Shown piece after piece: positions 21,277 to 61,866 of a DNA stretch of 64,000 nucleotides. This DNA comes from Saitoella complicata NRRL Y-17804. Lineage: Eukaryota > Ascomycota > Saitoellomycetes > Saitoellales > Saitoellaceae. The number at the start of each line of letters is the position of its first letter. Within the stretch, counting starts at the first letter, position 1. Position numbers and translations under genes: made by a program. Under the pieces are notes generated by a model. The model made no database searches. It had not been told where the DNA came from and was given only the letters and a program-made list of their open reading frames with translations. The DNA is taken from the NCBI RefSeq assembly GCF_001661265.1, contig NW_017566997.1, positions 434,001-498,000 of the forward strand. Reading direction: 5' to 3'.

Positions 21277-22343
21277 TCACAAATCTTTCTCGCCAGACAA
21301 ACCATCACAAACAGGATCAAGCTTCTCGTAAAGTTGTTGAGTCCTGTTCCCCACCTTGCGAGGGACATTATCTGCAGCAGCCAACACCTTCTCTGTAGCT
21401 TTAGTGATCGCCGTAGTCTTGAACTCCTCTCCCGCCATCTCCTTCTCAGCCTTCGCCATTGCCACAGATACAGCAAACGCTTTGCTCCAGCTTCCGAGAA
21501 GACTCAAACTCTCTCCTGGTTTATTCGTGCGCAACAACTTCGGGACGTAGCCATTTGGGAACCTTTCCTCTGCCATGAAACTTTCCACAATATGTGTAGA
21601 AACTTTCTTGCCATCACCGAATACGTCGAGGAGAAGGGTGGGTTCGCCGTACGAGAGAATTCGGTGAGGTAGGTCGAGGGAGTAAGTTGGGTTGATCTCC
21701 TTCGAATGCCTCACACGTTCCACCCTGTACCTTCCAATGTCGTCGATCGTCAAATACTTCCCATCCTTACTGCAGCTGATGAATTTCTTCAGCAAGGCGG
21801 GATCAGCCTTCCTCTGATCTCCAAAACCGGAGTCAGGCCTGGTCAGAGAGGCATCGTGCTCAATCAGGTTGTGGCGACATAACGCGCCGAGATCAATGGT
21901 GCGGCCATCCCAAGAGCTTTGGAGGGCGCCGGACAACAAAGCCCAGCAGCTGGGAAAATTGGCGGAGTAGTAATCACGAAGTGCATGGTAGAGTTCGACT
22001 GGGCTGACTTTCTTGCCGTCATGAGGACTGCAAATCATTAGTGTCTGTGGTTAAAGAAGAACATGCTGGTGTAGACGTACATCACACCATGATTCGCCAA
22101 TGCGTTCAACCCAGGACAAGGGGTCCTATGGTCAAACTCACCAGGAGCTCTGTAGTATTCTGCACCAAGGCGAAGTTGTTCAAGCGGCTTAGGCTTGAAG
22201 GTATACTGCGCATAGAGAAGCGTGGGAAAAAGGTATATCATGTTGGAAACGACAGTGACGAGGTTGACAAGACCGCTGATGATTTGATAGGGAATGAGTA
22301 GGAGGCGTAGGGGAAAGAACTGGGCTCTGACTGTGTCGGACAT
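21277..22343 (-). CDS. Heme-thiolate peroxidase / peroxygenase with N-terminal membrane segment
   Basis: Two exons (intron 22028-22080) give 337 residues of the chloroperoxidase/unspecific peroxygenase family. These enzymes use a Cys-ligated heme and H2O2 to oxygenate or halogenate substrates. The proximal motif TPCPGLNALANHGV (Cys76) is followed across the splice by IPHDGKKVSP. The distal region has LIEHDASLTR, so the EHD-S pattern of short-type enzymes is present at about 144-148. Secreted relatives start with a cleavable signal peptide. Here residues about 12-48 (LLLIPYQIISGLVNLVTVVS, then IYLFPTLLYAQY) form a long hydrophobic stretch more like a membrane anchor. The substrate cannot be inferred. 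A TATA box sits about 85 bp upstream. Confidence 0.9.
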
Positions 22344-43675: not shown

Positions 43676-45085
43676 CCTGGCGATTGTTGTAGAAAAAGAG
43701 GGTAAGTGTTGTGAGAACGAAAGTTGATAAGTTGGTGAGTGATGAAAGAAAGAATGTGAATTGAACAGCGATCAACACTGAATCAACAAAAGAATGTACT
43801 TTACCACGAGGGTAAAAGCGTCGAAAAGAAGCTCTGGTGAGGGAGGAGGATGGTGGTCAATTGCTACAGCTGGGGGAGGGATCAAGGTATTTATCCTCCC
43901 CGACTAGGCTTGGCATAACAGACCATGGGGTGGTCGGACGCGGCGGTGGCTCGGACATCGATATTTCATGTGTTACATCCAAAGGAAGAGCGAGAAGTCG
44001 CGTTTCGGACTTCTAGCGCACGGACCCTCGAGAGTTCCAGCCACGCACCAGCCACGGGAGGTGATATAGCCCACATGTCCAACGAGCACAACAATCGATA
44101 GGCTGGTTATGAAGAGGCTGGAAAATTGAGCGGGACGGTCGTGAGATGGCCGTTGGCTGGACTGGGCTGGGCTGTGCAAAACGGGAGAGGTTGTTCGGGA
44201 GGTTTGTTCCGATCAGCGTGAGGGGCGATGGGCGATGGGCGGCGGGTATGGGAAGGTTGTACGGGGTGGCAATTGACTCATGAAAGATTGTAAAGTTTGC
44301 TTGTTCTGGTAAATGATTGTACGGCGGGAGCTGCCGGGCCCTCGATAGGCTGGCGAGGATCGCTGAGGCTGTGCTCCATGTGGTAACCTGTCGCACGGCG
44401 GGAGTGGAGATGACGATAGCGAATGCGCTCATTTGACCTTATGGAGTGAAAGGTTGTATGACTGAACGTGTCTTTACCGTCGATAGGCTAGTTAAGCTTG
44501 CGTTACCTGTGATTCACACTGCGGTAGCTTGCCCGGTGGGATCAAGACATTCAAGCGCCAATCGCCCCGGGTGATCCTTCCCGAACTCCTCGATGGCTGG
44601 TAGAATGAATCTTCACTAGTTTTCGTGACCTTCCCGTTGTCTAAGGCGCCGGAAAGGGCCCTTCCTGTCTTGATAGGCTTGCCAGAGTAACGTCTACTAT
44701 GGCCGCCGGATGGCTCGATAAGCTCCTCGGTCCGAAACGTAGTCAATGACACCCCTGCGTGCTCTTGCTGGCATAGCACCAACTTCCTAATCGTAGCCAC
44801 ACTCTATTCGTATTCACCTAGTTGGAACGCACAGGCACCACCGATGATTGTTGACCGACCTTTCCATGGCCAGGTCAGGGTTGCGGAGCTCGGGATTTGT
44901 ATCCGCCTGCAGCTGGTCATGAACGGTGAAAAAGCAAGAGACTGTGCCTTGACATACGGATTCCATTCTACTCACCTTGGCACATCGCTGTCCTGAGCGC
45001 GACCGCTTGCAGCAAACTCCCACGCTGGCGCAGGTTCAATGACCTCGGATCACGTGACACGTCAACGTTACCTCCCCCAACCCCG
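43676..45085. other. Long intergenic region upstream of EXG1
   Basis: 1.4 kb between the divergent EXG1 and LDAH genes. It contains a TATA-like GATAAATACC on the minus strand near 43890, four copies of a (T)GATAGGCT motif (about 44095, 44342, 44478, 44672), a short GGGCGAT tandem near 44224, and TCACGTGA at 45049-45056. Open frames here lack family features. Confidence 0.5.
45049..45056. promoter_or_regulatory. E-box palindrome TCACGTGA
   Basis: CACGTG-type site (bHLH: Cbf1, Pho4 or SREBP-like factors) about 30 bp upstream of the first LDAH ATG. Motif evidence only. Confidence 0.3.
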
Positions 45086-46144
45086 ATGCGGCACCTCCTC
45101 CACGCTCCCCTCCGTCGTTCCATCACAACCATGTCCCTCCCCTCCCTCCTCCAACCACCCCTAAAATCAACCCTCTCCGACCCTCTTCCAACCGAATGCC
45201 ACTTCTACCCCTCCCTTCCCGCCGACGAGCCCCCGGAAGCTTTGATCTATTTCATCCCCGGGAACCCAGGTTTCGTGAGTTACTACACCGACTTCTTCGA
45301 TGAGGCGTGGGAGAGAATGGGAAAGAGAGTCGCTATTTTGGGGGTGTCGCATGCTGGGTTTCCGCCTGCGCTGCCGCTGGGGGAGCCATTGGATGTGAGG
45401 GGGCAGGTTGCGCATAAGGTTAGGATATTGGACCGGGTTCTGGAGGAAATGGATATGAAGAACAAGGGAGGGAAGAGAACAAAGATTGTGTTGGTGGGGC
45501 ATAGTGTTGGGAGTACATCTTCACCGCACCGGGCTCCGTAACTCGAAGATTGACGAAAGTGCTCCGTAGGTTTCATCGCATGCGAAGTCCTGAAAGAACG
45601 ACCCGACATCGTCGACGCAGCGATCCTCCTCTTCCCGACCCTATCGCACATCGCACTCTCCCCGCAAGGTAAAATCCTCACCCGATGCCTTTCAATCCCC
45701 GGTTTCGCACGCGGAATCTCATACCTCCCAGCTATCCTCCGCACCCTCCTCCCCTCGCCCATTCTCAACACACTCGTCAAATCAGTAACCGGGTTACCGG
45801 AAGCTGGGTTGAGAACAACTGTTGACGAACTCCTCAACTCCTCCTCCGTCTACTCGGCCCTAAGCCTTGCCGCCTCCGAACTCCTTCTCATCCGCGACCT
45901 TGATCCGAACTTCTTCGCTACACACGCATCGAAATTGATATGTTACTACGCAGCCACAGATGCATGGGTCGCCGAGTGGGCGAGGGAGGAGGTTCGAAGT
46001 ATGGGTGAAGAGAAGGGACTGAAGTTTTATTTGTGTGCGGAGGGGGTGCCGCATGCGTTTTGTTTGAGGCATGGGAGGCTTATGGGGGAGAAGGTTGCGG
46101 GGTGGGTGCAGGAGCTGATTAGAGCTGATGAGCTGAAAAACTGA
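45086..46144 (+). CDS. Lipid droplet-associated hydrolase (LDAH family)
   Basis: Two exons (intron 45513-45569) give 333 residues from the ATG at 45086. An internal ATG at 45131 (MSLPSLLQPP) would remove a basic presequence-like start (MRHLLHAPLRRSITT). LDAH-type features are ALIYFIPGNPGFVSYYTDFF, the nucleophile elbow VLVGHSVGSFIACEVL rebuilt across the splice, LLFPTLSHIALSPQGK, and the C-terminal catalytic His in GVPHAFCLRHG. The family covers human LDAH and yeast Ypr147c, which are linked to lipid droplets and neutral lipid. The intron cuts directly behind the catalytic Ser motif. Without splicing the frame ends 10 codons later. Confidence 0.85.
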
Positions 46145-46432: not shown

Positions 46433-46750
46433 ATGTTGTCCCAGGGAACACCTTCTCAGAAAATTACTCCTGTTATCGTGGTCGTTTCAGGCGGTCCCAG
46501 CCAGCCATCTGACAAAGCGTACATCACCGTTCCATTCATCCCGGGCACCTAGCAGTTCTTTTGGCGTCAATTATGGGACAATGACCTAGGCGTGGCGGAA
46601 CAGAGGCTATTTCTGGTCGCTCTCAAGAGTGCCCTTCACCGTCTGCCTGAGGACGCATCACGCCTTAGCGTGGTTGCAGGCCTAGGGGTGGCACGAGGCC
46701 CCCTACGAGACCCCCAAATTCTACCAAACACGATTATAAAACCCGAATAA
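46433..46750 (+). pseudogene. Coding-like tract, interrupted or unresolved
   Basis: From the ATG at 46433 a protein-like frame runs MLSQGTPSQKITPVIVVVSG to FIPGT and meets a TAG. It then continues as FFWRQLWDNDLGVAEQRLF, VALKSALHRLPEDASRL and VVAGLGVARGPLRDP, and ends at TAA near 46750. The TAG lies in CACCTAG, which could also be a splice acceptor, so it may be an exon boundary rather than a lesion. No family is recognised. It is either an orphan gene or a decayed host gene; chance is possible. Confidence 0.25.
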
Positions 46751-47084
46751 AATTACCCAGTATCACGAATAGAGTTATTGGAGTTAGTGGGATATTCTGG
46801 GCACAATCTGCATTGTTAATTCGTCTTGAAAGTAGAATTTTTTATACGATTTACCAACACTACACTGTTATATTATTCTACCTCATGACTGCACACTGCA
46901 CAGATGTGACACTAGTTGGTACCATCTATCACAGGTCATGAAAATCTAGGTCCATTGATATTATTGAAACTTAAACAAGACCCGAAAATTTCAGAAGTCC
47001 AACCTTGCCTCAATTCCCACTGTCAACACACATATGCATACCATGACGCTTCCTCTCATCTCTCTTTTGTCCACTCAGTCGAAA

Positions 47085-47165
47085 CAAGCTCATCGTCTTC
47101 ATCGTCTTCATCATCATCGTCAACATCATCATCGTCATTGCCATCATCCCATCATCGTCAACATC
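47085..47165. repeat. ATC/GAT trinucleotide-rich stretch
   Basis: An imperfect microsatellite of TCA/TCG triplets. On the minus strand it encodes mixed Asp/Glu or Met runs depending on frame, following a basic stretch (KVRGRKQPGKKTLRTSG). Confidence 0.7.
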
Positions 47166-47756
47166 AAACTCCGGATCATCTTGGAAACTGCGATTGGACG
47201 TATATCGATTTGATGCCCCTGAAGTGCGCAAGGTCTTCTTTCCAGGCTGTTTCCTACCGCGAACCTTCATTGCCATTGGGTCAGGGCGGGTTAGTAAAAC
47301 CTGATGAGTAGTCGTTTTACTGTTGCTGTCAACAAAGTGCGGGACTCACCCGAATAAGAGGAGACATCAAGCAAGAGTGTCGAGATTAAACAACCATCAT
47401 GTTAACCTTTCAGCAACAGCGATCATGTGCCCAGTTTGGGTTGAGACGATACAAGCCATAGCATCGGGAGAACAGATGGGAGAGGACCAGGGAGGCGTAG
47501 GATTCGATGCTTGCGTCAATCAGTTGTGAGACACCCAGGACATTGAGACATTGATGGTGGTGGGTTCCTGGTTGGTGCTAAGGACTTGGTGAAATTTGCC
47601 AGCGCATCAGCGCATCAGCGCTTGTGCTCACACGTCACTCTCGAGAGGCGCAGGCCTAAGAACCGTGACCAAAGACCATTGATCTTCGAAGACCCTCCTC
47701 CCTCGAAGACCCTCGACCATCCCACAATGGATCCTCAATCTCGTTTTTATTGATGT

Positions 47757-47970
47757 GGGATATCTTATTCTCCTGGAACGAATATCATTCCAGGTCAAAT
47801 AAGGTATTTGTGTACCATGAATTGGAATTCCACTCTACTTGAATACTTTCCCACTTTATTCGTGTTTTTCATACAATCGAATGACTTATTCGAGTGCTTT
47901 TGCTGAAAGTGGAATATGTTATTCCATATTTGTGCAATCACGAATCAGGCATTCGTGACAGTCGAATTCG
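47757..47970. repeat. Cluster of short GAATA/TATTC palindromes
   Basis: Consecutive inverted repeats within about 215 bp: CCTGGAA/TTCCAGG (47772-47794), CAAATA/TATTTG (47796-47810), TGGAATTCCA (47823-47832), GAATA/TATTC (47841-47861), TCGAAT/ATTCGA (47877-47893), TGGAATA/TATTCCA (47910-47926), TCACGAAT/ATTCGTGA (47938-47958) and CGAATTCG (47963-47970). An imperfect one begins at 47757. Arms differ in their outer bases yet stay complementary, and most share a GAAT...ATTC core. Nature unknown. Confidence 0.75.
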
Positions 47971-49236
47971 GGGGGCTAGTAGGGGCCGCCGCCAAATCGT
48001 GCAGCACACAGACAAACAGGACAATGTCGAAAGGGAAACGACGGCACAAAGGTCTCCACCCTGTTTCGCAATGGTAGCGGCGGCCAATTGAAGCCATGAA
48101 GTTATTGTCTCAAGCGGTACATCGGTCCCCTCGTTATGGTCGGTGGCGAGGGCCGCACGGAGCGTACCAGGCGTGGGATGAAAGGATCAATGCTGGTATC
48201 GATCCCATCTGGAGAGTCGCAGATCGTTGCTGTACCCCATTGTATCACACTGGTTAGCTTTTTCACATCAGCGCTGCTGCCCACTCACTGCTACGTTGTG
48301 GTTTGGTGAAGGAGTGTGAGGGGCGTGTGACTCCTCTTGTATAACGACCAGTTTCGGACATGAAAAGCGGGGCTGTCTGTCACATGTTCCCCACGGAGTT
48401 TCCAGAGAAAGACTGAGGGCCGACGCTGCATGTTGTCATGCTCATGCACAGCGGCGGGCACGGTCCGAACGCGAACGCATCAATTGGGCGCAGGCCTGGC
48501 TCGCATATGGAACAACAGATACGTTCATGACGATCCGTCTCCAGAAGTCATTGTATAGGGGTCGAAGAATTTTGTTTTCCAATGTTGCTAGGACTTACGC
48601 TCTGACAAATGGTACGCTTCAAATTTCCCACGCGTCTGAATTCATCAAGCCGTGCGCTTGCAATTGAGCAGGCCACTTTCTTCTCCCGATGAAGTACAAG
48701 AACACAATTGCATCAAGAGAAGGCAAACATGGTAAAGAACTCCTCAAAGATGTGTTACCTGTCTCCGGGCCTCAGTTTTACATCTGCTTACATTGACTAC
48801 AGGCTTCTACATTAGTTGGCTCGTGACGAGCAGCACACTCCCAACGCGCAAGCATGGACAGGTTAAAAAGGCCTACATGTGTTTCTTCAATCAAGCCGGG
48901 CCAAAATAAACTCCTGACCACGGCTTGGTAGATGGCTAATGTTGCTTTCGCGCCGGTCCGCGACATAAACCTCAAGTGACTCGCCAATTAAGCGGCCCGT
49001 AACTTAAGCGAAAGCGACATCTCGCCTCAAAGGTATGAAAAACACATGCCGCAGCGTCTTCAGTCGCAGATCGAAACAGGTCAGGAGGTCGATATTCACT
49101 TAATCCAGGCTACGACTTCCAGTTAAAGTCCTGGCCAGGGAAAGGCCCTGAGGTCGTGTGATCCCAAGAGGAGGCTTAGCATGAAGAGATCTGGCAACGA
49201 CGAGAGAGCCTTGGTTTTCGTGTTCACCGGCAGGCG

Positions 49237-49244
49237 TATATAAA
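49237..49244 (+). promoter_or_regulatory. TATA box of the cupin gene
   Basis: TATATAAA, 87 bp upstream of the ATG at 49324; classical spacing for a core promoter. Confidence 0.55.
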
Positions 49245-49323
49245 CCTTGTTTACCTTGCAGTCAAACGATATATCACCGAAACCTTCCATCCGCCCATCG
49301 CTAAGCGAAACACCACTACAGTC

Positions 49324-49856
49324 ATGCCCGAAGCCTCCAACCTCGTCAAACCCGAAGAGATCCGCATCGACGGCGAAAAAGACACCACCTGGGTTCCCTG
49401 GGCCAACATCCACTTCAAACCCCTTCGTTTCGAACCCCGTACTGGCCTCGTCGTCGCCATCCTTAAAGCCGGTCCCGACTCCTCCCCCAACACTGAGAGC
49501 GTCCCGAAGCACAGGCACCGTGGTCCTGTGACGGCTTTTGGTCTTAAGGGAGAGTTCGAGTATCTCGAGCGCGGATGGAAAGGCAAAGCGGGCGATTACG
49601 TTGTCGAGAGCCACGGTGCGGTGCATACGTTGTTTATGCACCCGGGTACGGAGGTGTTGGTTACGGTTATGGGATCAATTGAGTGAGTGAATCCATCTCA
49701 TGCTGCGTAGGGTTGCGGTGTGCTGACGGGAAGTGTAGATATTTGAATGAAGAAGGGGAAGTTGCGAATACGATTGATGTGGGTACTTTCATGGGGTTGT
49801 ACAAGGAGTTTTGTGAGAAGGAGGGGATTGAGTTTAATGAAAGTTTGATCTTTTGA
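49324..49856 (+). CDS. Cupin protein, dihydroxyacetophenone dioxygenase-like
   Basis: Two exons (intron 49683-49738) give 158 residues. A single cupin domain shows WVPWANIHFKPLRFEPRTGL, the metal-binding pair in PKHRHRGPVTAFGLKGEF, YLERGWKGKAGDYVVES and HGAVHTLFMHP. It ends YLNEEGEVANTIDVG and a short helix. The arrangement resembles 2,4'-dihydroxyacetophenone dioxygenase, an iron enzyme that cleaves a carbon-carbon bond next to an aryl ketone. The real substrate is unknown. The gene stands alone beside the gene-poor island and has its own TATA box, so inducible expression is plausible. Confidence 0.8.
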
Positions 49857-51337: not shown

Positions 51338-51730
51338 GTCAAGGGCAAGGACGGGAAGAACGGGATGGAGGTGGTGACCAGTCGTAAGATATGGAGATGT
51401 GTGTATGTTAGGTTTATGTAACGGCTTGTTGGATTGTTTGAATTGAGTGCGGTTTCGGAACAACCTCGCCCGTTGATTACGTCTGCTCGTGCATTCGACA
51501 TTCCCAACATTCCTTCCAAATTGCAATTGTGCCTTCAATCGACTTCTTGATTACCATTCCCATTCTCATCGATCTCATACAAACTGCGTCATTCACCAGT
51601 CCCTGAATCTGTGCCTGCCAGGCTGTCGTACACGTCGTACACCCAAGTCGCGCGCTCAGTCCTCGAGGGAACAAAGCCGCATACACTCCCTAAACTTCGC
51701 AAACACACGACCAGGTCAACCGCAGTTGCA
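51338..51730. other. Intergenic, LHS1 promoter
   Basis: 3' flank of cyanase and LHS1 leader. The LHS1 frame is open back to an ATG at 51611, but that extension is not signal-peptide-like. No other gene seen. Confidence 0.55.
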
Positions 51731-54349
51731 ATGGTTGCCGTTCTATCCCGGCTATCCCGAAACCTCTACCTAACCCTCGCCCTCTTCACCCTCCTCTGCA
51801 CCATCGCCAACGCCGCCGTCCTCGCAATCGATTACGGCCAAGAATGGACGAAAGCAGCGCTTGTGAAGCCTGGTGTGCCGATGGAGATCGTACTGACGCG
51901 GGATTCGAAGAGGAAGGAGATGAGTGTTGTGGGGTTCAAGGGGGATGAGAGGTTATATGGACAAGATGCGTTTAACTTGGCGGCGAGGAAGCCGGAGTCG
52001 GTATATCCGGGGTTAAAGAGCATTATGGGACAGTTCTCGGAGTCGGAGATCGTTGAGGAATACCTCGCGCTCCACCCCGCGAACGTTCTGATCCCCTCCG
52101 ACCGCTCCACCGTCACCTTCAAGCAAAAGAAGGACGACTACACACTCGAAGAGCTCCTAGCGATGCAATTTGCAAACATGAAATCCCAAGCCGAAGCAAT
52201 GGCCAACGGCGAACCAATCCGCGACACAATCATCACAACCCCACCATACCTAACCCAGTCCGAGCGACTCGCACTCATCGATGCCGCGGAAATCGCGGGA
52301 TTGAGGGTATTGGAACTAATGAGTGATGGTGTGGCGATTGGGGTTAATTATGCTACGGGACGGAACTTTGGGGAGGAAGTGCAGTGGCATGTTGTGTATG
52401 ATATGGGGGCTGGGAGTACGACTGCGAGTGTTGTCTCCTTCCGCTCAGCCAGCGTGAAGGATGTCGGACGATACAACAAGACGGTCACGCAGGTCAATGT
52501 TGAGGGAGTTGGTTATGACCGTTCCTTGGGCGGCAACGCATTCAATACCCGTCTCGTGGAGCACTTCACCGACGTCTGGGAACAAGGCCCCGGAAAGAAA
52601 GCCGGATCATCGATTCGGGGGAATGGACGCGCGATGGCGAAGTTAGCAAAGGAAGCGGTGAGGGTGAAACAAGTCCTCAGCGCAAACACCGAGGCACGCC
52701 TGTCCATCGAGTCCTTCCACGAAGACATCGACTTCCGCGCCCGCATCACCCGCGCAGAGTTCGAATCTCTCACCGCTGACCTCGCTGCTCGTGTCACCCT
52801 CCCCGTTCAAACCGCCCTCGATCAAGCCGGTCTCTCCATCTCCCAAATTGAATCCGTTATCTTGGCCGGAGGGAATAACCGTATCCCAGCTGTCCAGCGC
52901 GCGTTGGAGAATGAGGTAGGCGCGGAGAAAATTGCGAAGAATGTCAATGCGGACGAGGCGGCTGTCATGGGGGCTGTGTTCAGAGGGGCGGGGTTGAGTG
53001 GGTTGTTTAAGGTGAAGGAGATTCAGGTTGGGGATGTTGCGTTGCATCCGGTGAAGGTTGGGAAGGAGGAGTTGTTTGGGGTTGGAGCACCCGTTGGATC
53101 TGCGAAGAACGTTACCTTCAAAGAGAGTGGTGACTTCAAGGTCGACGTGATGTACGCTTCCCAGGCTTCCTTGCCAACTGGTATGCCATGCGAGATCTTT
53201 GCTGTCAACGTCGGCGGTTTGAAAGATGCCCTCGCCAAGGTCTCATGTTCTGATCCGGCTGTCAAGGTCACATTCGAGATTGATAACTCGGGGTTGGTCG
53301 GTGTGCAGCGGGCGTTTGTGGAGTGTGAGGTCGATAAAAAGAATTTGGCGGGGAAGTTGAAGGGGTTGTTTGGTGGTAAAGAAGACAGCACTTCTTCCGA
53401 TTCTTCCGCGTCCGCGTCGGCGTCTGCAACGCCTGATGCTGAGGTGGGGAAGAAGAGCGAGTTTGTGCCGTTGACGTTCGATGTTGAGTATACCGGTGTC
53501 AAGCCTTACGGTGCCGCCGAAAAAGCCGCTTCGCTTAAGAAGTTGCAGAGTCTTGATCAGCTCGACCGGAAGCGTCATGCCCGCGAGGAAGCACGAAATG
53601 GACTCGAGGCATACATCTACGGTACTCGTGACCAACTCGATTCCGAGGACTTCGACGCCGCGTCAAGCGACTCTGACAAGAAGGTGCTCCAGAGTGTTTT
53701 GGATGAGGTCACTGAGTCCCTCTACGAAGATGGGGATACGGCTACGAGGGAGGAGTTGTTGGAGAGAATGAGGAGGTTAGAGAAAGTTGCTAAACCGATC
53801 AGCGAGAGGGTGAAGGAACATCGGTCGAGGCCGGAGAAAGTCGCGGCGTTGGAGAAGGTTGTGGAAAACTTTAAGAGATTTGTGGAGGGTGTGAAGGAGC
53901 AGATCCAATCTGCGACTGCGAGTGCATCGATCACGAGGTTGAGTGAGGATCAGCTGCTGGAGGAGGAGGGGTCTTCAAGCCCTGCCGCCTCGGCTCCTGC
54001 TGAGGTCGTCCCGCCATTGTTCAGTGCCGAGGAGTTGGAGAGGATCTCCAACACGGTGACTGAAGTCGAGAAGTGGTTGACGAAGAACAAGGCCGCTCAG
54101 GCTGCCTTGAAGATCTGGGATACACCAGCGTTCTTGGTGCACCAGGTCGAGGAGAAGGCAAAACAGTTGCAGGATGAGTTGACGAAGATGCTGAACAGGA
54201 AGCCTCCGAAGGCGAAGAAGAACGGGAATGAGAAGAAGAACAGCGCGACGAGGACGGCGTCGGCGTCGGCGTCGGCGTCGAGTAGCTCTACTTCTGATAC
54301 GGCGAAAGCGAGTACGAGTGCTGCACTGGAGACTCATGATGAGCTCTGA
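51731..54349 (+). CDS. LHS1: ER Hsp70-like chaperone LHS1/GRP170
   Basis: This intronless gene encodes 872 residues. A signal peptide (hydrophobic LYLTLALFTLLCTIANA) is followed by the Hsp70 nucleotide-binding domain: VLAIDYGQEWTKAALVKPG, SVYPGLKSIMGQ, VYDMGAGSTTASVVSF and ILAGGNNRIPAVQRAL. An Ala/Ser-rich loop and long helical C-terminal region complete the Hsp110/GRP170 plan. It ends in HDEL, the ER-retrieval signal. LHS1 is the nucleotide-exchange partner of Kar2/BiP and aids protein entry and folding. The ATG at 51731 gives the signal peptide at the N-terminus, whereas the upstream in-frame ATG at 51611 would bury it. Poly Ala/Ser runs near the C-terminus come from GCGTCG repeats. Confidence 0.93.
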   Translation: MVAVLSRLSRNLYLTLALFTLLCTIANAAVLAIDYGQEWTKAALVKPGVPMEIVLTRDSKRKEMSVVGFKGDERLYGQDAFNLAARKPESVYPGLKSIMGQFSESEIVEEYLALHPANVLIPSDRSTVTFKQKKDDYTLEELLAMQFANMKSQAEAMANGEPIRDTIITTPPYLTQSERLALIDAAEIAGLRVLELMSDGVAIGVNYATGRNFGEEVQWHVVYDMGAGSTTASVVSFRSASVKDVGRYNKTVTQVNVEGVGYDRSLGGNAFNTRLVEHFTDVWEQGPGKKAGSSIRGNGRAMAKLAKEAVRVKQVLSANTEARLSIESFHEDIDFRARITRAEFESLTADLAARVTLPVQTALDQAGLSISQIESVILAGGNNRIPAVQRALENEVGAEKIAKNVNADEAAVMGAVFRGAGLSGLFKVKEIQVGDVALHPVKVGKEELFGVGAPVGSAKNVTFKESGDFKVDVMYASQASLPTGMPCEIFAVNVGGLKDALAKVSCSDPAVKVTFEIDNSGLVGVQRAFVECEVDKKNLAGKLKGLFGGKEDSTSSDSSASASASATPDAEVGKKSEFVPLTFDVEYTGVKPYGAAEKAASLKKLQSLDQLDRKRHAREEARNGLEAYIYGTRDQLDSEDFDAASSDSDKKVLQSVLDEVTESLYEDGDTATREELLERMRRLEKVAKPISERVKEHRSRPEKVAALEKVVENFKRFVEGVKEQIQSATASASITRLSEDQLLEEEGSSSPAASAPAEVVPPLFSAEELERISNTVTEVEKWLTKNKAAQAALKIWDTPAFLVHQVEEKAKQLQDELTKMLNRKPPKAKKNGNEKKNSATRTASASASASSSSTSDTAKASTSAALETHDEL

Positions 54350-56489: not shown

Positions 56490-59400
56490 CTATGTCAAAA
56501 ACTTCTGCAAGCTCTCTCCAAGGTAGCTCTCAATCTTCACAATCAAAGCCTGAGTAGCACGCTCCACATTCTCATCCTCGTCCTCCATAGCCTCAGCAAT
56601 GAACGGCACAGTCTGGGGCAACATCGTCAACCACTCCTCACCGACACGGCCGTACAACGCGGTCTCGGCCTTGACGGCGGTGAGACGGACATTGGCGTTG
56701 TCAGAGCGCATGTGCTGGAGAACCTGGGTGTTGATGCTCTTGAAGTGGTCGTCAGACGGGGAAGCAGCGGCCAGCTCGACAATGGCAGGGATCAACCTGC
56801 TCTTGGGGCTGACAGCATCAGCGAAGGTTGCCTGAGCGATCAACGCAGGGGCGACCTTATCGAAGTAAGCAGCATTCTGCCAGTATCCCTCCTCCGCATG
56901 AGCGAAGCACTTCTCAAGAGCACCGACAGCAGCGTGCCAGAGGTCAGGAGTAGTGGCCTTGCCTTCGGTGAACTGGCCGAGCAACTCGACGGTGTGGTCA
57001 ACAACAGGGCCAATGTATCCACTGACGACAGACTTGAAGGTGTCCATGAAAGTAGCCAAGAACCTGTAGTAGAAGATCTGACGAGCAAGGGCACCCTGAG
57101 TGTCGTTCTTCTCCTGCAACTCACCAAAGACCCAGTCGACGAGACGCAAGTACAAAGGCCTGAAGGTAGTGTCGTTCAGCTTCATGACCATCTGAATGAA
57201 AACATCGATAGCGCGGCTCTCCAAAACCTGAAGAACCTTACCCTGGAAAAGCTCATCCTTCCTCATATCGAAAGCGGAAAGGAAGAACTTCATCAAAATA
57301 GCAGCCTGGGTACCAATGATGGCACGAGAAGCAACACGCATGACCTCCTCAAGAACATCGAACAAGTCCAAAACAGCGACCTTGCCCAACTTGAAGACAG
57401 TAGTCCAGGTGTCGAAAAGGGCAGCAAGGACAGTCTTGGCAGCAACGCGCTCAGCGATAGCGAAGAGCAACGCACGACGAACCTCAACGATCTCATCACC
57501 CTTGTCGGTCTGAGCAGCAGAGGTGAAGCAGACAATGAAAGTCTTCTTCATGTAAGGACCAAGGAAGGAAGGAATGACCTTGACGAGACCCTCAAGCAAG
57601 GAGTAAGAAGCGAGCTCGACCAAGTCCAGAGACTCGTCCTTGACGGCCTCGTCCAACATGTTCAAGACAGGCGGAACAATCTTGGGCAGAGAAGGCACCA
57701 AGCGAGGACCGAGGGTAGCGCTCATGATCGAAAGACAGACCAAAGCAGACACGCGGACATCAACGTTCTCGTGCAGCAAACCACCGTCACCGATGATAGG
57801 CTCGACAACCTTCGCGAAAGCACCAGCCTCACGCTTACCGTACTTGCCAGCCATAGACCCAATACAGTCGAACACGATCTGGATAGTCTCGCCATCGCTC
57901 TGGGGAGTAACGCTCTCCACCAACAACGGCAAAAGCGCAACAGTAGCCTGCTGAGCCTCGGGGTCCATAGGGGACTCCTTCTCGACGCGGGAACGAACAA
58001 TAGCGATCGACTTGCGGCGAAGAGAAATATCGGAGTGAACGACGAGTTTCTCCATGGTGGCGGTGAAAGCGGGCATGGGCAAGAGCAAAAGAGTCTTGTC
58101 CAAAGCTTTGTACAAGGCGTCGGTGACGACGGCAACCTTGGCAGTACCGAGCATGGCAAGCAACTTCTCGACAACGGAAGCGAGACGGTCTTGGAAGGGA
58201 GCCTCGACACCGGCGGCACGGGCGTAGCTGGCGAGATCAACCCTGAACTGCTTAGATCCAAGGATCAAGGAGGCGAGGTTCAAAACATCCTCCTTGAGAC
58301 GAGCAAACCTCTCATCGGTGTAGGTAGTGAAGTTAAACAAGTACTCTCCCTTCTTGTCGACATTCGCCGCACGCAGAGGAAGATCCCTAGCCAGATCAAT
58401 AAGCTTCTCAACAGCAATAAGCTCAGTCTCAACACCGAACGAACGGCCAAGGGACAAGCAGAAGTCATCAAGGTACTCCAGCTCAGAATCCTTGTTCTTG
58501 CCCTTCACATCCATCCTCTTCTCCGCCAACAAAGCCAAGATACCGTGCAAGAACTCCTCCGCACCAAGAGTCTGGACCAAAACGAGGAACAACTTCAAGC
58601 GGCGGTGGACGGGGATGTGGCTAAACGCGTTGACGAAGCTGGAGAGAACACCAGCGGCGTCGACAACGACGTTGGATCCGTTCTTGCGGTACATGTTGAC
58701 CAAGGGAGGAACGACACGCTCAATCGTCTGCTGGATGACATGAGCAGAGTAGCTGTCATCCTGACGAAGAACGTTAGCACCCATGAAGGTGAAGATGGGC
58801 ATAACGCTGTGCAACACAGTCTCAGGCGCAACATCACTCAACGCAGAAACAAGCAAAAGCGCACGGTTATGGACCTGCGGGTTAACAGAGTTGCGGATAC
58901 AGTTGACAAGCGTGTCAATCCGCACAACCTTCGCATCCAACGCACCAGTGTAGTTCTCGACCATGGGAGTCATGGTTGACAACACCAACTGCTGAGGGTA
59001 AGAGATGGCCATCTTGAGGTCAATCTCGACAGTCAACAAGTCACCCAAGATACCGAAGAACTGGCCAAGGAGCTCGGGGTACTTTTCCGCGCCCTTACGT
59101 TCGACGAGTTCAAGGAGAGCGGTGAGTTGCTGGATGGCGTGCTGCAAAGAAGAGGCAGTAGCCTCCGCAGCGGCTTTTCCGCCCTTCTGTCTCTTCGCGG
59201 GAGTGGCATCCTGCGCCGGGGCCTTCAACTGCACCTCAGCAATGAGCTGCGACAGAACGGCGGCATCGATAGAAACCTCGTCCAAAGCGGCAGTAGCAGT
59301 AGCAACGACATCCTTCGCCCCATCCGCAGCAACCTGCAACAAAGTCTTGACCAACTCAAGCTTACTCTCATCCTTGATCGTCTCCCAAATCGCCTTGGCG

Positions 59401-61715
59401 CGCTCAATAGCAACAACAGCCAAACCACCCTTCGCCTTCGAAATAACGGCGCGAAGGACGGATGTCGAAGCCTCCTTTCCATCCTCAACGATCTTGACCA
59501 ACTCCTGCTCCATCTCGACGACGGGGACAGAGGCGGCGTTACAAGCGGACCTCAACTCGTCGTGCTTGGTAGCGTACTTCTCGAGAACAGTCAGGAGGTT
59601 CTTACCCTTCAAGCTCGCAGCACCATCGACACCGTTCAACACGCTCAAAACCCGGAACTTTGTCACCATCAACGGGCAAGCGATAACATGCGAAGCCAAA
59701 GCAGCATAAACCGAAGTCTTCCACGTATTCTCCTTACCCTTCTTTCCAGCACCAGACAACCCACCTCCAACGGCCTTGACAACAAACTTCTCATCCTGAA
59801 CGCATTCCTCCATCTTCAGGCCCACGACCTCGACAAGGAGTTTAGTTGTTTCGGCCCACTTTAATAACTCGACCTCTGCGTCGCCCTGAGGGGAAGTGTA
59901 GATAACGTCCTGAGCCCACACCACACTCTTCTTTCCCTCTTGCTTCTCGTATACCTTCTGGAGAGCCTTCAATGCGTCCGCGGCTGCCTGACGAACAGCA
60001 GCGGACATATCAGCGAGAGCACCGATGAGGTGCGGGACGAGGAGCTGGTAGTCGACCTTTTCCTGAGTGAAGGCGAGTGCGTTAATAGCAGCCACACGCG
60101 AGATCTCACGAGCGGAGCGAGTCCATGCGTATACGAGGAAGGTGATAATCGCGACATCACCCTTCAAGGACCCCAGAATCGGGGCAACGTCCTTCTCGTT
60201 CGCGAGTGCATCGTCCCAGAGCCGCAACAATGCCTTACCAGACGCGGGTTCCTCCGCAGCCAAGAAAGACTTCTCGTCCTCGAGCTTGATGGACGCGAGC
60301 TTATCCTCGAGGGAGGGCTCGGCGGACTCAACAGGGGGGGCGGCCTCGATCATGGGGACGTCGTTGGCGACTTCGGCGGTGAGGGTCATGGTGAGCTTCA
60401 TCTCCAACTGTTTGACCTTGTTCGGGCCCAAGCCGTTGGTGAACTCGGTCCATGCCTCGGCAAGAGAAGTGGTGGAGCGGATATCCTCGAGAACGGCACT
60501 GACTTTCTGCACGACCTCCGTATCAACTTTCTTGCCACCAGCGGCGTGCGCAGCGGTCTTCAAAATCGTAGCGACCTGGTTACTGGACAACTTCCCAGTC
60601 TTGACGAAGGCCAAGACCTTGTCTAACGCGGCGGGGTTCTCGTGGACATTCTCAATGATGTCCAAGCAGTACGCAGTCCACAACTTATCGACACGGTACT
60701 TATCACCCATCTCGAGCAAAGTGCCCTCTCCTCCCTCCAAGTTCTCCATTGCCTTGAGCGTGGTACGCGGCAACGATGGCGTCCCCTCCCTCATCTGCGC
60801 CAACTGCGCCAAACAAATCAACCCACAACGACGAGCCGAAGCCTGCGATCCCCAAGAGATGGCAACAGCGTCCATGAGTGCCTTAATGACCACGTCGTCG
60901 AGTGTCGCACGCGACGCAAGTGCCGTAATAATCATATAATTCGCAATCTGAAACTCGGGTGCATGTTTGAACTTCATCCCATCCGCAACCCCCGGCAAAA
61001 CCCTCTCCACGATCTTTTCCTCATCGACACCCGTGGTCCTCATGAACGTAATGGCCTCGACCGCGTACGCGGCCCAGAAGGACGCAAGGGCGTGGTATGT
61101 CCTCTTTTTCTGGACGGCGGAGATGAGGAAGTCGGAGAGCAGGGTGTAGTGGGGCGCGGTGGGGTGTGCGAGTTGTTTTACGATTGAGGCTTTGGTTGGG
61201 GATTGGCGAGCTTTTCGCCATTGGGAGAGGAAGGACCACTCTTCTGGTAGTGTGAGGATAGAGAGGAGGCGGGCGAAGAGGGGGTGGGTGTGGTAGGGGA
61301 GGAACGCCATGATGAGAGCTGCGGCATTCTTCTCGTGGGCCTTGAATCGACGGATGAGCCACTCCAATGCTTTTGATGCTGAACGCAGGAGGAAGTGTGG
61401 TGCGAGAAGCTGGACGAAAGACACAATCGCCACATCCAAATCCTCATTCTCCTTCGCGTTCATGTTATCACGATTCACGCCCTTCGAACTCTCCGAAAAC
61501 AACCCCTTCTCAAAAACATCGAAGCGGTGATCCAAGGAACGGAGCTCGACGTATCCATTAACCGCAATCGCAAATACCGTCTCATAATCCTGATCCGCGG
61601 CCTCGGCTTGGTCGAAGAGAAGTGATTTGATGTTCCGGACATGCTTTTTTCTGTCGAGGGTGTTGACGCTCTGCTGGCTGATCGCAGCGAGCTGGGACGC
61701 GAGCGTTGAGGCCAT
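56490..61715 (-). CDS. UTP10: U3 snoRNP / SSU processome protein UTP10 (HEATR1)
   Basis: This single uninterrupted frame encodes 1741 residues, the usual length of the family. UTP10 is a HEAT-repeat scaffold of the t-UTP module, needed for pre-18S rRNA processing and rDNA transcription. The N-terminus MASTLASQLAAISQQSVNTL is typical. Further landmarks are LEWLIRRFKAHEKNAAALIM, VDTLVNCIRNSVNPQVHNRA-like HEAT units in the middle, FTFMGANVLRQDDSYSAHVI and, near the end, FYRFLATFMDTFKSVVSGYI. The whole chain is alpha-helical. It diverges from SEC72 across about 150 bp. Large antisense open frames here are shadows of its codon bias. Confidence 0.95.
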   Translation of the reverse strand: MASTLASQLAAISQQSVNTLDRKKHVRNIKSLLFDQAEAADQDYETVFAIAVNGYVELRSLDHRFDVFEKGLFSESSKGVNRDNMNAKENEDLDVAIVSFVQLLAPHFLLRSASKALEWLIRRFKAHEKNAAALIMAFLPYHTHPLFARLLSILTLPEEWSFLSQWRKARQSPTKASIVKQLAHPTAPHYTLLSDFLISAVQKKRTYHALASFWAAYAVEAITFMRTTGVDEEKIVERVLPGVADGMKFKHAPEFQIANYMIITALASRATLDDVVIKALMDAVAISWGSQASARRCGLICLAQLAQMREGTPSLPRTTLKAMENLEGGEGTLLEMGDKYRVDKLWTAYCLDIIENVHENPAALDKVLAFVKTGKLSSNQVATILKTAAHAAGGKKVDTEVVQKVSAVLEDIRSTTSLAEAWTEFTNGLGPNKVKQLEMKLTMTLTAEVANDVPMIEAAPPVESAEPSLEDKLASIKLEDEKSFLAAEEPASGKALLRLWDDALANEKDVAPILGSLKGDVAIITFLVYAWTRSAREISRVAAINALAFTQEKVDYQLLVPHLIGALADMSAAVRQAAADALKALQKVYEKQEGKKSVVWAQDVIYTSPQGDAEVELLKWAETTKLLVEVVGLKMEECVQDEKFVVKAVGGGLSGAGKKGKENTWKTSVYAALASHVIACPLMVTKFRVLSVLNGVDGAASLKGKNLLTVLEKYATKHDELRSACNAASVPVVEMEQELVKIVEDGKEASTSVLRAVISKAKGGLAVVAIERAKAIWETIKDESKLELVKTLLQVAADGAKDVVATATAALDEVSIDAAVLSQLIAEVQLKAPAQDATPAKRQKGGKAAAEATASSLQHAIQQLTALLELVERKGAEKYPELLGQFFGILGDLLTVEIDLKMAISYPQQLVLSTMTPMVENYTGALDAKVVRIDTLVNCIRNSVNPQVHNRALLLVSALSDVAPETVLHSVMPIFTFMGANVLRQDDSYSAHVIQQTIERVVPPLVNMYRKNGSNVVVDAAGVLSSFVNAFSHIPVHRRLKLFLVLVQTLGAEEFLHGILALLAEKRMDVKGKNKDSELEYLDDFCLSLGRSFGVETELIAVEKLIDLARDLPLRAANVDKKGEYLFNFTTYTDERFARLKEDVLNLASLILGSKQFRVDLASYARAAGVEAPFQDRLASVVEKLLAMLGTAKVAVVTDALYKALDKTLLLLPMPAFTATMEKLVVHSDISLRRKSIAIVRSRVEKESPMDPEAQQATVALLPLLVESVTPQSDGETIQIVFDCIGSMAGKYGKREAGAFAKVVEPIIGDGGLLHENVDVRVSALVCLSIMSATLGPRLVPSLPKIVPPVLNMLDEAVKDESLDLVELASYSLLEGLVKVIPSFLGPYMKKTFIVCFTSAAQTDKGDEIVEVRRALLFAIAERVAAKTVLAALFDTWTTVFKLGKVAVLDLFDVLEEVMRVASRAIIGTQAAILMKFFLSAFDMRKDELFQGKVLQVLESRAIDVFIQMVMKLNDTTFRPLYLRLVDWVFGELQEKNDTQGALARQIFYYRFLATFMDTFKSVVSGYIGPVVDHTVELLGQFTEGKATTPDLWHAAVGALEKCFAHAEEGYWQNAAYFDKVAPALIAQATFADAVSPKSRLIPAIVELAAASPSDDHFKSINTQVLQHMRSDNANVRLTAVKAETALYGRVGEEWLTMLPQTVPFIAEAMEDEDENVERATQALIVKIESYLGESLQKFLT

Positions 61716-61866
61716 GAGTGTTGTTTGACCTTCATAGGATGCAGCTGGTCGAGGATAAGGTTACCACTTTTTTGGTGGGCGCGGGTGGCGGAGCAGGGGC
61801 CGAATCGATACCGGTACGGGGGGGGTAACCACCAAGAACCATACACCCAGCATACACCCCGTCAAG

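Follow-up and report, generated by a model that had tools for sequence, protein, structure and literature searches.

A dense array of GAAT/ATTC palindromes and a putative terminal-inverted-repeat element surrounding it

The palindromes described here lie in intergenic DNA within a 64-kb stretch that was analysed as a whole (hereafter the window) and whose DNA is eukaryotic and ascomycete-like. For example, a 1755-aa frame at 56490-61757 is a Utp10 protein, with its best solved relative being 5jpq chain G (E 2.6e-221), the Chaetomium thermophilum protein. The putative element that surrounds the palindromes has a lipid-droplet hydrolase gene on one side and a cupin gene on the other, and the features of this region are collected in Table 1. 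A short minus-strand frame inside the putative element has a codon score of 6.3 bits, as compared with a 95% point of -1.5 for intergenic sequence and with values from -4.0 to 27.9 (5-95%) for coding sequences. This frame reads KVRGRKQPGKKTLRTSGASNRYTSNRSFQDDPEFDVDDDG and has no Pfam family above cut-off, and intron-like signals were seen by eye upstream of it. Its first ATG may be that at 47367, and it may belong to a host gene, with the palindromes lying upstream of that gene. The frame at 47013-47345 has a single, sub-cut-off Pfam match, to Gag_p12 at E 0.11.

Table 1. Features in and around the palindrome array, in window positions.
Feature	Position	Strand	Description	Basis
Lipid-droplet hydrolase	frames within 44930-46141		neighbour of array	
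Putative non-autonomous or decayed TIR element	46698-47987		1.29 kb, holds the palindrome array	inverted terminal match, AT-rich blocks, interpretation
Left terminal inverted repeat	46700-46724	+	CCCCTACGAGACCCCCAAATTCTAC	21/25 ungapped inverted match to 47961-47985
Left AT-rich subterminal block	46716-47000		GAATA-type half-sites, no palindrome excess; AT segment 46716-47214	
Coding-like short frame inside element	47145-47275	-	frame changes at adjacent GAT-type repeat	codon score
Right AT-rich subterminal block	47726-47945		most of array; holds the window's most AT-rich 200 bp	
Degenerate extra unit	47755-47770	+	GTGGGATATCTTATTC, resembles GTGGAATATGTTATTC at 47909-47924	direct-repeat family D1
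Palindrome 1	47772-47794		arm 7, loop 9	script stem listing
Palindrome 2	47796-47810		arm 6, loop 3; AAATA/TATTT, without GAAT core	script stem listing
Palindrome 3	47823-47832		arm 5, loop 0; TGGAATTCCA	script stem listing
Palindrome 4	47841-47861		arm 5, loop 11; GAATA/TATTC	script stem listing
Palindrome 5	47877-47893		arm 6, loop 5; TCGAAT-N5-ATTCGA	script listing and pattern search
Palindrome 6	47910-47926		arm 7, loop 3; TGGAATA-N3-TATTCCA	script listing and pattern search
Palindrome 7	47938-47958		arm 8, loop 5; TCACGAAT-N5-ATTCGTGA	script listing and pattern search
Right terminal inverted repeat	47961-47985	-	CCCCTACTAGCCCCCCGAATTCGAC (minus strand)	21/25 match to 46700-46724
Palindrome 8	47963-47970		arm 4; CGAATTCG; within right terminal repeat	read from sequence
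ChrR-type cupin	frame 49180-49683		ATG 49324; neighbour of array	
Cyanate hydratase gene, putative	from 50720			by-eye reading
Hsp70-family gene	51551-54346			

A preliminary description had counted eight consecutive palindromes within about 215 bp (47757-47970), and all eight were located in their places, seven by script and the eighth by reading the sequence; its count of four with arms of 6-8 bp and loops of 3-5 nt also holds. The span 47757-47971 contains six perfect stems with arms of at least 6 bp and loops of at most 12 nt, against a mean of 0.79 and a maximum of 5 in 2000 dinucleotide shuffles. With arms of at least 5 bp there are 11 stems, where 2.95 are expected and the maximum in 2000 shuffles is 10. 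The whole window holds 121 stems with arms of at least 6 bp and loops of at most 12 nt, and away from the array none of its 215-bp spans contains more than three stems with arms of at least 6 bp. GAAT and ATTC together occur 16 times in the array (shuffle mean 4.2, maximum 13, 2000 shuffles). The exact pattern GAATN5ATTC is found three times in the 64 kb, always within 47879-47954; this total is unremarkable in itself (1.22 expected, at least three in 8 of 100 shuffles) and only the crowding into 76 bp is remarkable. With one mismatch allowed, its count in the 64-kb window shows no excess (23 found, 26.6 expected), and the feature is therefore local within the 64 kb. A tandem-repeat search found no array of a single unit in 47744-47970. 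Overall, the palindrome array is a real, non-random and local feature.

The core common to seven of the dyads is GAAT/ATTC, which is shorter than the GAATA/TATTC core first proposed, and the palindrome at 47796-47810 does not share it. The spacers inside the seven GAAT..ATTC dyads are, in order, 3, -2, 13, 5, 5, 5 and -2, a variation that does not suit one rigid dimer, and the three dyads with an N5 spacer have their centres 33 and 30 bp apart. Of the 15 steps from one GAAT half-site to the next, 14 switch orientation (binomial P 0.0005), with two GAATTC words among them alternating by construction. The outer arm bases had been described as varying between units while staying complementary, as if pairing itself were kept. 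This is so for some dyads, as positions -1 and -2 are both paired in four of the seven and -1 alone in one, but neither is paired in the other two. A total pairing run as large as that observed was reached in 4.7% of 5000 permutations in which right flanks were re-paired among dyads, and as many -1/-2 pairs were reached in 16.5% of 5000 flank permutations among dyads. With frequencies no lower than these, the permutations speak only faintly for pairing that may have been maintained while the sequence changed. Two families of known sites were also sought in 47757-47970 and set aside: CATTCY, the AbaA/TEA motif, is present just once (47786), so an array of AbaA/TEA-domain sites was rejected, and the heat-shock unit, GAAnnTTC or TTCnnGAA, has no occurrence.

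The surroundings of the array may point to a larger structure. The sequence at its right edge recurs in inverted orientation, as read on the minus strand, 1.26 kb away, and terminal inverted repeats, by which a TIR DNA transposon is recognized, are thus present with 21 of 25 positions matching and with no more than moderate significance. The window has four inverted pairs, this one included, that are separated by 300-2500 bp and reach at least its ungapped score. In a BLAST search of the window the terminal match had E values of only 0.05-0.28, depending on the query, and a gapped alignment of both ends scored 38 as compared with a best score of 39 in 300 mononucleotide shuffles. The terminal match has no second copy within the 64-kb window, and for shorter terminal patterns that allow mismatches there is no excess (4 found and 6.5 expected; 7 found and 4.7 expected). 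Ranked by AT content, the top two 200-bp stretches in the 64 kb are 47731-47930 and 46792-46991, and they lie just inside the repeats, one next to each copy. Such bracketing, assessed with the 15 best inverted pairs and the 12 best AT-rich segments, arose in 586 of 63,800 circular shifts (0.9%) in a test that was framed post hoc, while a looser count of inverted pairs touching an AT-rich segment on either side was uninformative (1 observed, 0.44 expected).

The two AT-rich blocks also resemble each other in their short words. They have 66 6-mers in common where 41.1 are expected (reached in 1 of 1000 shuffles) and 26 7-mers where 12.6 are expected (5 of 1000 shuffles), the blocks as compared including the terminal repeats, which are the source of 1 of the 26 common 7-mers; the counts of common 8-mers and 9-mers were not significant, being reached in 130 and 247 of 1000 shuffles. 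When windows overlapping the array are excluded, 46701-47000 ties with 21501-21800 for the most 7-mers in common with the array (23 each). Stems with arms of at least 6 bp are absent from the left block (0.89 expected). As regards a target duplication, CG, TA and GCC match exactly in register at the ends, and longer G+C-rich near-matches carry mismatches. The TA is in register at 46704-46705 and 47980-47981, where a chance TA is often expected, and TTAA is absent from 46681-46730 and 47956-48005. Of the 22 stop-to-stop frames of at least 40 aa that overlap the putative element, 13 were searched, and none of these matched a transposase family at E<=1. The dinucleotide ratios of the putative element (0.54, 1.31) carry no clear signature of repeat-induced point mutation when set beside those of the flanks (0.80, 1.24 and 0.67, 1.24) and of the window (0.63, 1.12). 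Two further repeats were observed near the ends, namely a near-tandem 12-bp repeat at 46693-46715 (CGAGGCCCCCTA / CGAGACCCCCAA) on the left and, at the right end and just beyond it, a perfect 9-bp inverted repeat at 47984-47992 and 48077-48085 (GGCCGCCGC / GCGGCGGCC).

We tentatively read the array as the subterminal part, on the right, of a TIR DNA transposon that is old and either non-autonomous or decayed and that would occupy approximately 46698-47987; this reading is plausible rather than established. A single TIR element, to which no superfamily is assigned, is the simplest account covering both the array and its surroundings and is our leading one. In its favour are the inverted repeat, the AT-rich blocks just inside it, the 6-mers and 7-mers that these blocks have in common and the alternating half-sites. 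Several results count against it, namely that no transposase turned up in the 13 frames, that no target duplication is decisive, that the window holds no second copy, that the left block is not enriched in stems and that a coding-like minus-strand frame lies inside. The 1.29 kb would then be one inserted unit that once moved. The GAAT..ATTC dyads could serve as repeated putative binding sites for a transposase dimer of the element, which would gather on the right end and join it to the left end, and the paired ends might then undergo cut-and-paste movement. It is also conceivable, though highly improbable, that this is a nuclear fungal element with an end consisting of numerous small hairpin dyads, each evolving on its own, that are kept by pairing itself and recognized as hairpins, in ssDNA or RNA, and not as a fixed duplex site.

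The main rival is a host regulatory region, in which the array would be a set of dimeric transcription-factor sites upstream of either the minus-strand gene (approximately 390-600 bp from its possible first ATG at 47367) or the cupin gene (approximately 1.35 kb from 49324). Such a region would be intergenic, as the array is, and the half-site enrichment, the alternating orientation, the three dyads with the same N5 spacer and centres 33 and 30 bp apart, and the coding-like minus-strand frame downstream are all consistent with it. However, it does not readily accommodate dyad spacers ranging from -2 to 13 and it leaves the flanking inverted repeat and the second AT-rich block unexplained, and we consider it possible but unlikely. 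The array may alternatively be a functionless by-product of mutation, with template switching at hairpins having perfected inverted repeats in an AT-rich intergenic tract and the terminal match being due to chance. The variation in loops and arms, the degeneracy of the units and a bracketing test that reaches only about 1%, and that post hoc, would all agree with this origin, which is nonetheless rather improbable in view of a GAAT core common to seven dyads and of related motifs 1 kb away.

Three readings had been offered for the array beforehand, namely a stem-loop RNA, an array bound by a dimeric protein and a family of tiny mobile palindromes. The array of dyad sites fits best, but most likely as one part of a larger, putative TIR-bounded element that had gone unnoticed. 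A structured RNA of consecutive hairpins, either a non-coding transcript or a 5' leader, draws on exceptional RNA fold z-scores (-3.45 on the plus strand and -5.81 on the minus strand) and on the slight surplus of paired bases outside the core. On the other hand, the fold energies are near-identical on the two strands (-65.0 and -64.5 kcal/mol) and the DNA folds of the array are equally exceptional (z -5.27 and -5.81), as DNA palindromes would give; this is the result expected from symmetry at the DNA level. No Rfam match reached the gathering score in the 64-kb window and a tRNA search of it returned nothing at threshold. Seven weak Rfam matches in 47000-48600, with E values up to 5, are all far below their cut-offs, and the only one to overlap the array scores 19.2 bits, its cut-off being 80 (E 4.3). 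A structured RNA is quite unlikely. As to a family of tiny mobile palindromes of REP-like, dispersed kind, the exact and one-mismatch counts given above reveal neither dispersed copies nor any excess elsewhere in the 64 kb. In a variant of this idea, selfish or organelle-derived palindromic DNA would have multiplied at one nuclear locus, for which related but non-identical hairpins lying side by side at low G+C would be suitable material. Palindromic organelle repeats with nuclear copies, described for Volvox (PMC2670323), are a precedent. Here too the terminal repeat is left unexplained, and we regard this origin as very unlikely. Should the reading as a TIR element fail, the array would still be strongly non-random, as a regulatory or RNA feature without an explanation.

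Searches beyond the window were carried out with the region and with its patterns. A distant DNA search of plasmids and phages with 47500-48300 gave short matches at chance level only (3 and 4 records, best E 0.8). The terminal-repeat pattern was found in no viral contig and in one stretch of the prokaryote genomes (L010), where by our own estimate approximately one chance match is expected; the first 600 of the 5980 bases of this stretch look like ordinary bacterial DNA and contain no AT-rich palindrome block. The triple GAATN5ATTC pattern occurs in nine stretches of viral contigs. The one inspected (L003, 7620-8506) is a long simple repeat of CTGAAT-like words, a match driven by composition alone. 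Among the matches listed in a literature search of limited breadth there was no fungal nuclear element of such form.

The putative TIR element can be compared with several known systems, each of which it resembles in part. Small Tc1/mariner-type fungal MITEs such as mimp are similar by description only, as small TIR elements with a possible TA duplication. The short palindromic repeats of Volvox organelles belong to families of hairpins, 10-100 nt long, that have their cores in common (PMC2670323), whereas the array is found at one locus in nuclear-type DNA with no dispersed copies in 64 kb. The Foldback or Mutator-like Tm1 elements of root-knot nematodes are described as having composite, repeat-built ends around variable cargo (PMC3169594). 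However, in place of an exact 9-bp duplication the present putative element has one 9-bp near-match with 2 mismatches, and its two ends do not form long inverted duplicates. P element ends also combine terminal inverted repeats with internal transposase sites and subterminal inverted repeats (PMC7776569), but here there is no exact 8-bp target duplication, the terminal repeat is shorter and imperfect, and no transposase was detected in the 13 of 22 frames. The likeness to piggyBat and piggyBac lies in imperfect palindromes near one transposon end, which are bound there by a transposase dimer; the present element differs in having no TTAA at either end and no transposase in the same 13 of 22 frames. 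The left end of piggyBat carries three imperfect palindromes and its right end has no counterpart (PMC11707139), as opposed to eight dyads here, and piggyBat thereby provides a precedent for a one-sided dyad array. If the reading as a TIR element is true, the locus would add to the transposons of fungi a small one whose dyad array is one-sided and unusually dense, and it could help to find out if arrays of this kind favour or hinder movement, a question raised for piggyBat (PMC11707139).
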